Shown: piece by piece, positions 23,772 through 29,759 of the stretch
Layout: the number at the start of each line of letters is the position of its first letter
Numbering within the stretch: the stretch's first letter is position 1
Assembly (NCBI RefSeq): GCF_018709685.1
Contig: NZ_JABDHQ010000001.1
Coordinates: 248,001 to 312,000 of the forward strand
DNA: 64,000 nt
Origin: Akkermansia muciniphila
GTDB lineage: Bacteria > Verrucomicrobiota > Verrucomicrobiia > Verrucomicrobiales > Akkermansiaceae
Reading direction: 5' to 3'
Translations under genes and position numbers: made by a program
The notes under the pieces: generated by a model
Seen by the model: the letters and a program-made list of their open reading frames with translations, nothing else
The model's database searches: none
What the model was told of the DNA's origin: nothing

Positions 23772-24130
23772 TGACCTAATAGTAAGAGTCCCTTCCTGAA
23801 AGACGCAAACGCTGAAAAAAGAGGAAGAACGTCTTTTGCCTTTCTAAAAGAAGAGAGGCATCGGGCACGAAGGACTCAACCTTGTTCAATGACAGGCTTC
23901 TGTAGATAACAGAAGCCTGTTTTTTAATGGTATCATGAAGTTCTCTTGCCATCCCATTTCCAGAATTCCCTGGATACCTATGCGCTTCCCATCCTTTTCT
24001 GGCAACAGACGGAAACGCAGGAAGAGCTTGAGGAAAACAGGAAAATGCCTCCCAAGTGAAAAAAAGATTGCCAACTCCCTCTTCTACCGTTACATTACCC
24101 CCGCTTTCCTATCTAACACAATCTATCAAC
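23772..24130 (+). other. Intergenic region between the GH20 gene and tRNA-Ser
   Basis: 359 bp with no convincing gene. It holds possible weak hairpins (AAAGACG with CGTCTTT around 23808-23845; GCCTTTC...GAGAGGC around 23846-23867) and one strong terminator at 23892-23926. A short open frame at 23935-24156 runs into the tRNA and is not credible. Confidence 0.6.
23892..23926 (+). terminator. Rho-independent terminator downstream of the GH20 gene
   Basis: A perfect 12-bp stem (ACAGGCTTCTGT with ACAGAAGCCTGT), loop AGATA, then TTTTT. It lies 121 bp beyond the GH20 stop, so the mRNA would carry a long structured 3' end or a separate short RNA ends here. Confidence 0.85.
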
Positions 24131-24220
24131 GGGCAGGTGTCAGAGTGGTCGAATGAGCACGCCTGGAAAGTGTGTGTACTGGCAACAGTACCGAGGGTTC
24201 GAATCCCTCCCTGTCCGCCA
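24131..24220 (+). tRNA. tRNA-Ser (anticodon GGA)
   Basis: 90 nt including an encoded CCA. The acceptor stem GGGCAGG pairs with CCTGTCC (one G-U). The anticodon loop is CTGGAAA, giving anticodon GGA. There is a long variable arm (about 24180, TACTGGCAACAGTA) as in class II tRNAs, and the T arm GAGGG-TTCGAAT-CCCTC. The AT-rich restriction island begins immediately after it. Confidence 0.95.
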
Positions 24221-24385
24221 TCAATTTTTCGCCGCAATATATTCTTAATGAGTATATTGCGGTCTTGTTTGGAGGGATGCGGAGAAGAAATTGGAGAAAT
24301 AGCATGTAAACAATCGACTTTTCAATGTATAGGAAGTATTTTTGACTTCAAGTTTTCATCAATTCACCTCATTACTGCAAAAAAT

Positions 24386-26461
24386 ATGACTCTTTCTGAC
24401 ATTCTCAAGGACTCTGATTACAAACAATCTCAATTTTCCCCTGACCAAATACGTAATTTTGAAGATAAAATTATCGTTTCCCAAGACAAAAAAGGGAATG
24501 ATATTCCCTATTACCCATGTTCTATTCGAGGTAAAGAAATCAGGCTTACTCCTGAAGAAGCAGTTAGACAGCTCTATTTGGAAGTTCTGATGTCTCAATA
24601 TGGCTATACGGCAGACCGCATAGCATTAGAGTACATGGTTACATTCGGACGCGAAAAAAAACGCGCCGACATTGTTATTTTCGACAAAGAAAAGCTGACT
24701 GCTCCTTATATCATTATTGAGATGAAGAAGCCAAAGCTCAAAGACGGAAAGGAACAGTTAAAGTCATATTGCAATGCTACGGGGGCTCCCATCGGCGTTT
24801 GGACAAATGGAGATTCCATTTCCTACTATCATCGTAAGGATCCTAATTATTTTGAAGACATTCCGAATATCCCCAAATCAACGGAAAGGTTGTCGGATAT
24901 TCTTTCCGACCCATGGACAATCAATGATTTAATCAACAAAGATAAGTTGGTTAAAGAACGAAAATCATTGAAAGATTTGATCCTTGAAATGGAGGATGAA
25001 GTACTCGCCAATGCCGGGGTTGATGTGTTTGAAGAATTGTTCAAACTCATTTTCACCAAGCTTTACGACGAAATGGAGAGTGGCCGCAACCCTAAACGCC
25101 ATCTTCAATTCAGGAACTATGGGGATACGGAAACCGAATTGAAGACAAAGATCCAAACTCTTTTCAATGATGCCAAAAAGAAATGGGAAGGCGTTTTTTC
25201 GGACGACTCTAAAATTGAACTAACTACATCACACCTTTCCGTTTGCATATCGTCTCTTCAAGACGTTAAGTTGTTCAACAGCAATCTTGACGTCGTGGAT
25301 GACGCGTTTGAGTACCTTATCAATAAAAGCAGCAAAGGAGAAAAAGGCCAGTATTTCACTCCCCGCTATGTCATCGACATGTGCGTTAAAATGCTTAATC
25401 CGCAGGAAGATGAAACAATGATAGATACTGCTGCCGGGAGCTGCGGATTTCCTGTCCACACAATCTTCCATGTCTGGGAACAGATTATGAAAGACGAGGG
25501 ATTGGACAAGAGCCATCTCTTCACCTTGGAACAAAAACCGGCCCGATGCTGTGATTATGTAAACAACAAGGTTTTTGCTATTGATTTTGATGAAAAATCT
25601 GTCCGTGTTGCACGTACATTGAATCTGATTGCGGGAGATGGACAAACCAACGTGCTTCACTTGAATACCCTTGACTGGGAGCGGTGGGATGAAAAAACAA
25701 AAGAGGATGAAGAATGGTTAGATACCTACGGCCAGGGATGGACCAAGTTGAAAAAATTGCGCACCGATAAGAAGAGCAATCGTGAGTTCAAATTTGATAT
25801 CTTGATGGCGAATCCTCCTTTTGCTGGAGATATCAAGGAAACACGCATCCTCTCCAAATATGATCTAGGAAAAAAACCAAATGGCAAATATCAAAGCAAA
25901 GTTGGCCGTGATATTTTGTTTATTGAACGCAACCTTGATTTTTTAAAACCCGGTGGACGCATGGTTATCGTGTTACCCCAAGGACGCTTTAACAACAGCA
26001 GTGACAAATACATTCGCGAATACATAGCTAAGCAATGTCGTATTTTGGCAGTCATAGGCTTGCATGGCAACGTTTTCAAACCCCATACAGGAACAAAAAC
26101 CAGTGTCCTGCTTGTCCAAAAATGGGATGATGAACTTTGCCCTCGCCAGAAAGACTACAACATCTTCTTTGCCACCATGCAGGAACCCAGCAAAGACAAT
26201 AGCGGTGATAAAATCTACGTCCGCAAACGAGATCAAGATGAAAAGCAGGTTCCTTCATCCTTGGATAGCGGTCCACTCAAACTGAATGAACCAATAGATG
26301 CCTATACTGCCACTCCAAAAGAATATGATGAATTTCTGCTGGATTCCCACAATCACCTGATTGTAAAACATGACCTCTTTAACCATGACGGATTGACACA
26401 AGACGGCATCGCAGAAGCCTTTATCGAATTTGCTAAAAAAGAAAAACTAAGTTTTTTTTAA
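24386..26461 (+). CDS. Restriction-modification protein: HsdR-type nuclease domain fused to N6-adenine methyltransferase
   Basis: 691 residues from the ATG at 24386 (an upstream ATG at 24248 is in frame but less likely). About 45-150 form a type I R-protein N-terminal domain with a PD-(D/E)xK nuclease pattern: D95 in RADIVIFD and E112-x-K114 in IIIEMKKPK. A helical linker follows. Residues 300-640 are a type I HsdM-like methyltransferase: GQYFTPRYVIDMCVKML, motif I DTAAGSCG (347-354) and catalytic NPPF (476-479). One chain thus cuts and methylates, as in type IIG/IIB enzymes such as BcgI, with no ATP-driven translocase. It ends in a run of eight T. Confidence 0.88.
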   Translation: MTLSDILKDSDYKQSQFSPDQIRNFEDKIIVSQDKKGNDIPYYPCSIRGKEIRLTPEEAVRQLYLEVLMSQYGYTADRIALEYMVTFGREKKRADIVIFDKEKLTAPYIIIEMKKPKLKDGKEQLKSYCNATGAPIGVWTNGDSISYYHRKDPNYFEDIPNIPKSTERLSDILSDPWTINDLINKDKLVKERKSLKDLILEMEDEVLANAGVDVFEELFKLIFTKLYDEMESGRNPKRHLQFRNYGDTETELKTKIQTLFNDAKKKWEGVFSDDSKIELTTSHLSVCISSLQDVKLFNSNLDVVDDAFEYLINKSSKGEKGQYFTPRYVIDMCVKMLNPQEDETMIDTAAGSCGFPVHTIFHVWEQIMKDEGLDKSHLFTLEQKPARCCDYVNNKVFAIDFDEKSVRVARTLNLIAGDGQTNVLHLNTLDWERWDEKTKEDEEWLDTYGQGWTKLKKLRTDKKSNREFKFDILMANPPFAGDIKETRILSKYDLGKKPNGKYQSKVGRDILFIERNLDFLKPGGRMVIVLPQGRFNNSSDKYIREYIAKQCRILAVIGLHGNVFKPHTGTKTSVLLVQKWDDELCPRQKDYNIFFATMQEPSKDNSGDKIYVRKRDQDEKQVPSSLDSGPLKLNEPIDAYTATPKEYDEFLLDSHNHLIVKHDLFNHDGLTQDGIAEAFIEFAKKEKLSFF
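26452..26459 (+). repeat. T8 homopolymer at the junction of the two restriction genes
   Basis: The methyltransferase frame reads AGT TTT TTT TAA here. With one more T, or a -1 ribosomal slip on the T run, it would read AGT TTT TTT TTA ACA and continue without a stop into the specificity-subunit frame. The tract may therefore be a phase-variation switch or a programmed frameshift site. Confidence 0.6.
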
Positions 26462-26493
26462 CAAGCTCTTTCAACGAAGCGAAATACAACGCA

Positions 26494-27885
26494 TTGTTGA
26501 AAGGGCTAGAAATTACGGTTAAATCATTATCTGAGGTTCTTATTGATAATTATACAAACAGATGTGACAGTGAATTTTTCAAAAAAGAATATGTAGACAT
26601 ATTTAAAAATTTATTTTCTCACAACGTAGAAAAACTTGATGTTTTAACATCTTGGATTACTCAAGGACCAAATCCGTTTTTTGTTGGAAAAAGTAATATT
26701 CCTTGCCTAAATGGAAGAAATATAAATAATGGAAAATTAAACTATGAAAGCTCAGATTATATAAGCCCTGAAGAATATCAATTACTTAAAAGATTTCAGA
26801 TAAAATACGGCGATATTTTGATTACACTGAAAGGGAAAGGTTCCACTGGTAAAATAGCATATGTGAAAGAAGTTAGAAATGCTATTTTTAGTCGAAACAT
26901 AGGAATTATCCGTTCTAAAAAAATAATTAATCCGGCCTACTTATTTATATTTTTGTCATCAAAATATGGTCAAAAATTAATAGCTAGAGGAGAAACAGGG
27001 GGTACTGGCCAAACAACACTCACAACCACCTATTTAAAATCTTTATATATCCCTCGTTTATCATGCGAAGATAAAATTGCAAATATACAGAGCAATGCCG
27101 AAAATTTGATTCTTAAATCAGAGAAGATTTACTCTGAGGCAGAAGAAATGTTACTGAAAGAAATTGGCTTATATGCTTGGAAAATTAGCACTGAATCAAT
27201 TACGTCACAAAAATTCTCTAAATCAGTAACTACAAGCCGCCTGGATGCTGAATTTTACCATCCTAAATATGAAAACTATTTGTCTGTAATTAAAAAATAT
27301 AAAAATAGTTATGATACATTAGACAAAATATGCTATCTTAAGGATGAAAATTTTACTCCCGTTTATGGCGTTCTATATAAATATATCGAGTTGTCTAATA
27401 TCGGCTCTCAAGGAGAAATAACAGGTTATACATCAGAAAATGGTGAAGATTTACCATCACGTGCACGTCGGATAATTGGTAAAGGCGATGTAATTGTATC
27501 TTCGATAGAAGGCTCTTTAGATAAATGTGCTCTTGTTACCAATGAACATGAGAGGGCTCTCTGCTCAACAGGTTTTTACGTTATTAATTCACCAGAGATA
27601 ACCCCTGAAACTTTATTAGTGTTATTTAAAAGTCCGTTATATCAGAATATTTTAAAACGTTATTGTTCTGGAACAATTCTTACAGCAATCAATAAAATTG
27701 ATTTTCGGAATCTCCCGATTCCTTTGATTGATAACAAAGTTCAAAAAGAAATATCTTTTCTAATTCAAAATAGTTTTCGTTTAAGAGAGGAATCTGATCG
27801 TTTATTGGAACTTGCTAAGAAAGCAGTTGAAATTGCTATCGAACGAGGTGAAGAAACAGCTATGGAATTACTTAATGATGCATAA
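26494..27885 (+). CDS. HsdS-like specificity subunit (type I/IIB restriction system)
   Basis: 463 residues with the two-fold HsdS plan. Target-recognition domain 1 (about 40-200; KYGDILITLKGKGSTGKIAYV) is followed by a helical conserved region (NAENLILKSEKIYSEAEEML). Target-recognition domain 2 (about 245-420; GDVIVSSIEGSLDKCALV) is followed by a second helix ending ETAMELLNDA. It sets which DNA sequence is recognised. No ATG opens the frame: the start here is TTG at 26494, with no clear ribosome site. The frame is open upstream through SSFNEAKYNALLKGLEI to the T8 tract, so the natural product may be a fusion with the upstream protein. Strongly AT-rich. Confidence 0.85.
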   Translation: MLKGLEITVKSLSEVLIDNYTNRCDSEFFKKEYVDIFKNLFSHNVEKLDVLTSWITQGPNPFFVGKSNIPCLNGRNINNGKLNYESSDYISPEEYQLLKRFQIKYGDILITLKGKGSTGKIAYVKEVRNAIFSRNIGIIRSKKIINPAYLFIFLSSKYGQKLIARGETGGTGQTTLTTTYLKSLYIPRLSCEDKIANIQSNAENLILKSEKIYSEAEEMLLKEIGLYAWKISTESITSQKFSKSVTTSRLDAEFYHPKYENYLSVIKKYKNSYDTLDKICYLKDENFTPVYGVLYKYIELSNIGSQGEITGYTSENGEDLPSRARRIIGKGDVIVSSIEGSLDKCALVTNEHERALCSTGFYVINSPEITPETLLVLFKSPLYQNILKRYCSGTILTAINKIDFRNLPIPLIDNKVQKEISFLIQNSFRLREESDRLLELAKKAVEIAIERGEETAMELLNDA

Positions 27886-28241
27886 TTATCATCCCGAGTT
27901 ATAAGAATGGTAAAACGAGTTGAAATTAATTTTTATGCTGTATATGTTAATGCATGGATTCCTTTCAACTCTTCGTATCGTAATTAATACGGGAAACATG
28001 ATTAATATAGGCGATTTTTAAATATCATTTAAACCATCTTGAAATGAATCCTTACTTTTCCTTGTCCGGGGAGGGAGTAATTTATTTCGAATGCTGCTAG
28101 AATAATTTGTAAGGATTCCAGAGGAAAAAACTGGTTTTCCTTTTTCATACATTTCCTAGTGATGAAAAGGTTTTCATTATTACCATAAGGTAAGGTATAT
28201 CTGATACTTATTAGGAATGGACAGGAATATCGAATATCCTA
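27886..28241 (+). other. AT-rich intergenic region, right end of the restriction island
   Basis: 356 bp with no credible gene. I see no copy of the tRNA-Ser 3' end that would mark the other end of an integrated element, and no HsdR or integrase fragment. Confidence 0.6.
28122..28146 (+). terminator. Possible weak terminator after the specificity-subunit gene
   Basis: A 7-bp stem (AGGAAAA with TTTTCCT), 6-nt loop, then TTTT. It is AT-rich and 237 bp beyond the stop, so it may be chance. Confidence 0.3.
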
Positions 28242-29759
28242 TTAGCTTATTCTGGTGATATCAGTTTCAGGTTTTGGGTAGGCTTTATCGGCAATCCATT
28301 TTTTTGTTTCAGCCACCATTTCGGGAGTGACGATGAAATCGTAATTAGCATAGTCACCGATGTGGAATTGTCCGGTTTTGAAGAATCCCCATTTCTCGAA
28401 GAAGTCGGTTAGGTCGGTTTTTGTGACGTCGCAGCAGGCTTTGATGAATTCGAACTGGTATTTGATCGTTTCATTTCCGCCGTAGTTTCCCGCATTGTTG
28501 CGCAGGTACTCCATGACGTCAGGGTAGAAGTCGGGATGCCCGTTTTTGGTAAAGTAAAGATGGAGCTGCCACAGGGGGGCCAGCTTGTTGAAGACGTCCT
28601 TTGATTCCAGGTAGGCTATTTTTCCGTCGATGATTTCCTTGCGCGCTTTGTCGTAACTGCCCTGGCGCTTCAAGCGGCTTTCGTTGCCTGTTTTGGCGGC
28701 GGCTTGAACAGAGAAAATATTGTTGCTGACCTCCGTCATGCCGCCCCAGGTCATCGGGCGCATTTGCATGACGTGTCCGACTTCATGGGAGAACCCCCAG
28801 CAGGCGTCGCCCTTGAGGACGTTTTCCGGATCGGTCACCATCCGCATGGTGCCGTTGTCTCCCAGGTAGGCGACTCCGTCGCCGTCGCGGAACATGTAGT
28901 AGTTGAAGTTCACGCGGGCAAAGACACGGTTTTTCGGGATTTTGCCGTATTTATCAAGGCCCATCAATTGGTATTGAATGCCAATCAGCTTGTCATAGGC
29001 GTCGATCAGTTCGGTACCGCGGTCTCTGGTGAATTTTTTCAGGAATTCGATAGGATAGGCCACCTGGATGTATTTTCCCCGGGCGTCCATAATCGGAGAG
29101 ACGGCCTGGTCAAGCAGGCGTACCCAGTCTTCGTTGGTGTCGCCCCGGGTGGTGTCGAAATACCCGTTGACCTTGCCCGTCACGAAATGGACGGGGATTT
29201 TCGGAGCCGTATCGGCATCATTGGTGAAGTAGCTGATGTAGGCGTTGGCGGGCGTTTCCACATCAATGATATTGATTCCTTCCTTGAGGGAAATCTGCTT
29301 TTTGTGCAGTCCCCAGCCGTTGGGGTCTTTCGTCGGCTGCACTCCTTCGGCCGGCTTGCGCATCAGGTTCGGGAGCAGGAGGCTGATTCCACGTCCATCC
29401 GTCTTGCCTACCAGCACGACGTGCTGCCCTTTTTCTAGGTAGACGCCCGTCATGTTGTCGTATTTGCTGAATCCGTCGCCGATTCTGAGATTTTTGCCCG
29501 TCTGGCGGGGTGAGGGGAGGGCCTGATATTCGGCATACAGGTAGTCCGGCTTGTAGCTGCCTGCCAGGATTTTGCCCGCGAGTTCCTTCATCGCGTCAGA
29601 CTGGAAAGCGGAAGTGTCCTTAACATCCTGTTTCAGGGCCGTGCAGGAGGCATCCTTGAATAGCTGGAGGTCATTGCCGATACTTTCCGGCGTGTTGGCG
29701 GCAAATACTGTTGCGAGCGACAGCAGGGGAAGGGAGAGGAATGAAATGATCCGGTTCAT
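28242..29759 (-). CDS. Secreted M60-family (enhancin-like) metallopeptidase
   Basis: 505 residues. Signal peptide MNRIISFLSLPLLSLATVFA, cut after AFA-like AA. A carbohydrate- or mucin-binding-like N-terminal domain (MTGVYLEKGQHVVLVG; GINIIDVETPANAYISYF) precedes the M60 catalytic domain with GFSHEVGHVMQM (zinc ligands His325 and His329, catalytic Glu326) and Glu343 in GGMTEVSNN, fitting HExxH-x(8-28)-E. M60 enzymes include the O-glycopeptidases that cut mucins next to glycosylated Ser or Thr, and several are known from Akkermansia. Together with the GH20 and GH33 genes this suggests host glycoprotein breakdown. Confidence 0.9.
   Translation of the reverse strand: MNRIISFLSLPLLSLATVFAANTPESIGNDLQLFKDASCTALKQDVKDTSAFQSDAMKELAGKILAGSYKPDYLYAEYQALPSPRQTGKNLRIGDGFSKYDNMTGVYLEKGQHVVLVGKTDGRGISLLLPNLMRKPAEGVQPTKDPNGWGLHKKQISLKEGINIIDVETPANAYISYFTNDADTAPKIPVHFVTGKVNGYFDTTRGDTNEDWVRLLDQAVSPIMDARGKYIQVAYPIEFLKKFTRDRGTELIDAYDKLIGIQYQLMGLDKYGKIPKNRVFARVNFNYYMFRDGDGVAYLGDNGTMRMVTDPENVLKGDACWGFSHEVGHVMQMRPMTWGGMTEVSNNIFSVQAAAKTGNESRLKRQGSYDKARKEIIDGKIAYLESKDVFNKLAPLWQLHLYFTKNGHPDFYPDVMEYLRNNAGNYGGNETIKYQFEFIKACCDVTKTDLTDFFEKWGFFKTGQFHIGDYANYDFIVTPEMVAETKKWIADKAYPKPETDITRIS

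Follow-up and report, generated by a model that had tools for sequence, protein, structure and literature searches.

A probable programmed -1 ribosomal frameshift joining the RM and S reading frames of a BcgI/BsaXI-like restriction-modification system in Akkermansia muciniphila and in related loci

Restriction-modification genes downstream of a tRNA-Ser gene

The window analysed here, a stretch of 64,000 nucleotides of the Akkermansia muciniphila genome, contains a restriction-modification locus that consists of a nuclease-methyltransferase gene (RM) and a specificity reading frame (S), with the following features:

24131..24220, + strand: tRNA-Ser(GGA), upstream of RM
24386..26461, + strand: RM subunit, 691 aa, PD-(D/E)xK nuclease and N6-adenine methyltransferase (Pfam HSDR_N_2 and N6_Mtase; motifs ADIVIF/IIEMKK and NPPF)
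24551..24874, + strand: HSDR_N_2 nuclease domain (Pfam), RM residues 56-163
25286..26203, + strand: N6_Mtase domain (Pfam), RM residues 301-606
26452..26458, + strand: putative slippery heptamer, T_TTT_TTT in phase with RM, kept in relatives as T_TTT_TTY or G_GGA_AAR
26459..26461, + strand: TAA stop of RM, immediately following the heptamer
26458..27885, + strand: S reading frame as entered by a -1 shift (475 codons), with two target-recognition domains (TRDs)
26464..26481, + strand: 5' arm of a predicted hairpin, after a 5-nt spacer (26459-26463)
26490..26507, + strand: 3' arm of the hairpin, covering the TTG codons at 26494 and 26497

The longest ORF that contains RM begins at 24056 and crosses the tRNA-Ser gene; the predicted start of RM is the conserved ATG at 24386, which corrects the longest-ORF start. 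The RM motifs are intact, and the nuclease and a gamma-type N6 methyltransferase reside in the same polypeptide, as in Type IIB enzymes. By sequence, the nearest PDB entry to RM is RM.BsaXI; the AlphaFold model of RM is poor (pLDDT 53) and was left out of the structural argument. The model of S (pLDDT 85) has two TRDs, and its best PDB match is the BsaXI S subunit. No HsdR gene adjoins the locus in the window, nor was one found in the ORFs of 12 relatives or in the Pfam matches of the large neighbours included in this non-exhaustive search. Given these nearest matches for RM and S and the lack of an adjoining HsdR, the predicted RM-S enzyme is BcgI/BsaXI-like (Type IIB). Membership of the MADS defence systems was considered and rejected, MAD2 scoring 318 bits against a curated cut-off of 720 bits and MAD5 126 bits against one of 400 bits.

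An A8 run within the nuclease domain of RM (24654-24661, GAA AAA AAA) constitutes an in-phase A_AAA_AAA. Gene content at the tRNA-Ser site (24131-28242) varies: in a second genome of the species (G009, locus L137) the place is taken by a Dam-like methyltransferase gene and an ATPase-like gene, so that the site may be a defence hotspot.

The junction between RM and S

RM ends in AGT TTT TTT TAA, and the run of eight T on which the earlier note had placed the end of the methyltransferase is indeed present, at 26452-26459. By itself T8 is unremarkable in the window (6 overlapping matches versus 6.9 expected). The S ORF, which ends at 27885, is in the -1 frame relative to RM and is open from 26437, through T8; upstream of the TTG codons it translates as KFFLTSSFNEAKYNALLKG. 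Within this stretch the residues P, F and Y are nearly invariant among relatives, the third codon position of the S frame is the most variable, and the P/F/Y segment begins a helix (S residues 5-13) in the AlphaFold model. The description of the S frame as open and protein-like back to the tract is therefore upheld, and so is the remark that S has no ATG, only TTG without a ribosome site: the first ATG in the S frame lies 689 nt beyond the RM stop, and among 73 junctions compared the TTG codons are inside the stem of the hairpin in 56 and follow a Shine-Dalgarno-like sequence in 8. A conserved -1 ORF that lacks a start codon of its own is a pattern expected of frameshifting. No S start overlaps or adjoins the RM stop, as it would in the coupling of Type I hsdM and hsdS, in contrast to a distant RM homologue (L127) that has an ordinary TGATG overlap. 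A -1 shift at the heptamer would yield an RM-S fusion of a predicted 1166 aa, with the junction peptide ...LSFFLTSSFNEAK spanning ...LSFF-LTSS..., and the annotated S proteins of the RM-S family are probably too short.

Downstream of S there is often a third gene, encoding about 270 aa (9549-10361 in L018, 9544-10368 in L035, 9547-10377 in L047 and 8386-9177 in L126); one of these resembles HipA, the rest match nothing in Pfam, and the window has no such gene. In L080 (8124-10250), the S frame runs on into a DUF6577 domain. RefSeq starts the S protein of L126 at a TTG (6995) inside the hairpin.

Conservation of the heptamer and the frame relation

The junction was compared in 93 loci, namely that of the window, 80 from genome contigs and the rest from related genomes, plasmids, and phage and viral collections (viral contigs contributed only 4 loci); 89 have RM and S as two ORFs and 4 have them in one ORF. 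Many of the relatives are contigs of metagenome-assembled genomes (MAGs), and isolates and complete genomes are also included. They represent about a dozen phyla, among them Bacteroidota, Bacillota, Pseudomonadota, Verrucomicrobiota, Fibrobacterota, Spirochaetota, Chloroflexota, Thermodesulfobacteriota, Ignavibacteriota, Campylobacterota, Myxococcota and, for a fused form, Cyanobacteriota.

In 86 of the 89 two-ORF loci, the -1 frame holds S and the 3' end of RM carries an X_XXY_YYZ heptamer in phase, either T_TTT_TTT or T_TTT_TTC (61 loci) or G_GGA_AAG or G_GGA_AAA (25 loci). What goes beyond chance, judged by this comparison, is the conserved trio of in-phase heptamer, -1 S frame and predicted downstream hairpin in these 86 loci. 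The heptamer abuts the RM stop or lies one codon earlier in most loci; in a few, among them L053, L081 and L126, the RM frame continues several codons past it. Changes between T-type and G-type heptamers occurred at least six times on a quick tree of 95 RM proteins, and tracts of six, seven and eight T all hold the same -1 relation to S. At the heptamer the codons depart strongly from the usage of the genes, and the Shine-Dalgarno-like Lys-Glu codon pair AAG-GAR is present about 9 nt upstream of 30 of 50 T-type heptamers (12.5 expected), with p-values that in both cases ignore shared ancestry. The enrichment of AAG-GAR is not seen at G-type sites, and the pair is absent from the window itself. 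The most shift-prone motifs in E. coli are V_VV.A_AA.R and H_HH.U_UU.Y (PMC4066793); another source (PMC5009743) also reports G_GGA_AAG as shift-prone and U_UUU_UUU as weaker than A_AAA_AAG in E. coli. As sequence motifs, T_TTT_TTY and G_GGA_AAR fall in the classes most prone to shifting in E. coli.

There are three exceptions. Two sister MAGs (L016, 8040-8130; L018, 8043-8133) have T5 with S in the +1 frame; they may undergo +1 frameshifting, be in an off state or contain an error. In Sediminibacillus (L054, 8052-8110), there is neither heptamer nor hairpin, and S has a Shine-Dalgarno-like sequence and start of its own. No junction of this kind with S is present in the more distant RM homologues L118, L119 and L122.

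A covarying hairpin downstream of the heptamer

The hairpin in the window has a predicted free energy of -24.0 kcal/mol and is more stable than expected from shuffling of synonymous codons (z -4.1). In the same comparison, z was below -2 at all 73 junctions, with a median of -4.4, the shuffles taking no account of shared ancestry; when the codon usage of each gene itself was applied, the mean z was -4.0 at 25 junctions versus -0.10 in control windows of the same S genes. The first paired base is 4-6 nt from the heptamer at 52 of the 73 junctions. In an ungapped alignment of 74 sequences, 89% of the pairs in the 18-pair stem are standard, and covariation between the arms is 0.224, compared with 0.158 +/- 0.006 after shuffling, with none of 500 shuffles attaining the observed value (shared ancestry again ignored); it falls to 0.10 or less when the partner is shifted by one to three columns. 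Pair 12-45 is found as UA, CG, AU, GC or UG and is unbroken in all 74 sequences; where it changes, the encoded residue is sometimes altered as well (E to D or N), indicating that RNA pairing rather than the peptide is kept. The junction therefore appears to possess a downstream stimulatory RNA structure under selection, a feature by which programmed frameshifting is recognized. An intrinsic terminator was rejected as the identity of this element: on the + strand the hairpin comes after the T run, and on the - strand the run downstream of it is of A.

Proposed translation of RM and RM-S

Consistent with these features, the RM-S junction is very probably a -1 programmed ribosomal frameshift cassette that yields both RM and RM-S from a BcgI/BsaXI-like (Type IIB) system. 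Ribosomes translating the RM mRNA would reach T_TTT_TTT and pause at the hairpin 5 nt downstream; a fraction of them would slip back by one base, bypass the RM stop and enter S to make the RM-S fusion, and the remainder would stop at TAA and release RM alone. One RM and one RM-S could then assemble into (RM)2S, with the slip rate setting the ratio of RM to S. Comparison shows that the heptamer, the frame relation, the hairpin and the N-terminus of S are conserved; that slipping occurs in the cell, that both products are needed and that they assemble into (RM)2S we infer. The known complexes of BcgI (PMC3874165) and BsaXI (PMC11997821) are (RM)2S, and an engineered EcoKI M-S fusion required added M for activity in vitro (PMC3510504). 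The wider proposition, that the slip rate sets subunit stoichiometry across a widespread family, that the enzyme is (RM)2S with a tethered S, and that lineages with fused genes kept a mirror-image slip site as a source of free RM, we regard as evenly balanced between right and wrong.

These lineages comprise L049, L056 and L057 (Methylococcales) and L125 (plasmid pAQ6 of Picosynechococcus PCC 7002, 1179 aa), in which RM and S are one ORF as a result of at least two fusions on the tree. All four keep TTTTTTTGA (TTTTTTT then GA) and a downstream hairpin (z -3.0 to -5.1), so that a -1 slip would meet TGA at once and release RM alone. This pattern is suggestive of free RM as a second product and is not proof, because an immediate -1 stop has roughly a one-in-four chance per event by a rough estimate. 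At the junctions of L049, L056 and L057, an inserted palindromic sequence now forms the hairpin.

Alternative explanations

The earlier note had proposed that the natural product is a nuclease-methyltransferase-specificity fusion made by phase variation or programmed frameshifting. Of these two routes, frameshifting is favoured by the heptamer, the covarying hairpin and the lack of an S start, and phase variation is disfavoured by the G_GGA_AAR members and the T6-T8 tracts; the fusion itself is retained as a probable product, although it is unlikely to be the sole one, since the gene architecture and the mirror-image relatives point to RM together with RM-S. A homopolymer tract at the junction of restriction-system genes is a classic setting for phase variation, in which changes of tract length in the DNA would toggle the fusion. 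However, the suggestion that tract length acts as a frame switch did not survive the comparison of relatives, in which the -1 relation is constant over T6, T7, T8 and G_GGA_AAR and the T9 'fused' state never occurs, and the RM gene is 100% identical between three E. coli genomes and a Klebsiella plasmid; phase variation is therefore highly improbable as the main mechanism. Slippage of RNA polymerase on the T tract could likewise produce a fused mRNA without ribosomal slipping, as T8 is near the length at which the polymerase slips (PMC5009743 cites runs of 9), and may add some product in T8 members. As the main mechanism it is also rejected, having a slim chance at best, because seven T-type members of one of the sets compared have only T6 and 25 relatives have the non-homopolymeric G_GGA_AAR; moreover, the hairpin is conserved in T-type and G-type junctions alike.

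Separate translation of S, through re-initiation at, or coupling to, the TTG codons that lie 35-38 nt beyond the RM stop, with the tract and the hairpin incidental or serving as aids to coupling, is unlikely, if slightly less so than polymerase slippage. RefSeq begins the S protein of a Klebsiella homologue at such a TTG, the Sediminibacillus S has its own Shine-Dalgarno-like start, and the TGATG overlap of L127 provides a precedent at a distance. Against this, residues upstream of the TTG are conserved, the TTG lies within the stem, few relatives have a Shine-Dalgarno-like sequence, and both the in-phase conservation of the heptamer and the switches between T and G types would be left unexplained. 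Homopolymers are error-prone, and L016 and L018 may be instances of a broken gene or an assembly error, in which an ordinary fused or two-start system has been hit by an indel; as an account of the junction in general this is scarcely credible, given that 86 loci, isolates and complete genomes included, share the frame relation with intact long ORFs and that the hairpin is under selection.

Comparison with known systems

Programmed frameshifting at the RM-S junction would most closely resemble that of E. coli dnaX (tau/gamma), which likewise combines a heptamer with a downstream hairpin to make two products with a common N-terminus, and whose upstream Shine-Dalgarno-like stimulator resembles that of many T-type RM members. 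The four fused RM-S relatives have the same layout as dnaX, in which a slip leads to an immediate stop. The RM-S junction differs from dnaX in gene family and heptamers, and in most RM-S members the slip would make the longer product. BcgI and BsaXI likewise have a nuclease-methyltransferase RM and a separate S with two TRDs; in the passages on BsaXI that were compared, RM and S are two reading frames and a frameshift goes unmentioned. The adjacent M and S genes of EcoKI are also in different frames, and removal of the frame change gave a working fusion that still needed free M (PMC3510504), but translation of EcoKI S begins, by coupling, at an overlapping start codon of its own, and S in the window has no usable start.

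AloI, CjeI and PpiI are single-chain Type IIG/IIB enzymes, in which a single polypeptide of about 1200 aa comprises both RM and S, a layout like that of L049, L056, L057 and L125. These four relatives retain the slip site and the -1 stop, which predict RM alone as a second product.

Implications for the RM-S family

A search of the main texts of open-access papers found no account of an RM-S junction with frameshifting, and no such case is given in the main text of the GeneTack paper (PMC3711429) or in the accessible part of the Atkins 2016 review. A C-REase fusion tested for frameshifting gave a negative result (PMC3850674). The slip site with a hairpin and the RM-S system are each known, and their combination appears to be new. 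The candidate frameshift spans about a dozen phyla; its slippery motif is of two interchangeable types, its hairpin covaries, and mirror-image versions occur naturally. To our knowledge, well-supported -1 frameshifting in bacteria outside mobile elements and dnaX is rare. If the proposed frameshift is real, the S subunits of the RM-S family carry a wrong, truncated annotated start, and the question of how the 2:1 ratio of RM to S is set would have a translational answer, one that might also be relevant to the puzzling stoichiometry of single-chain Type IIB enzymes.
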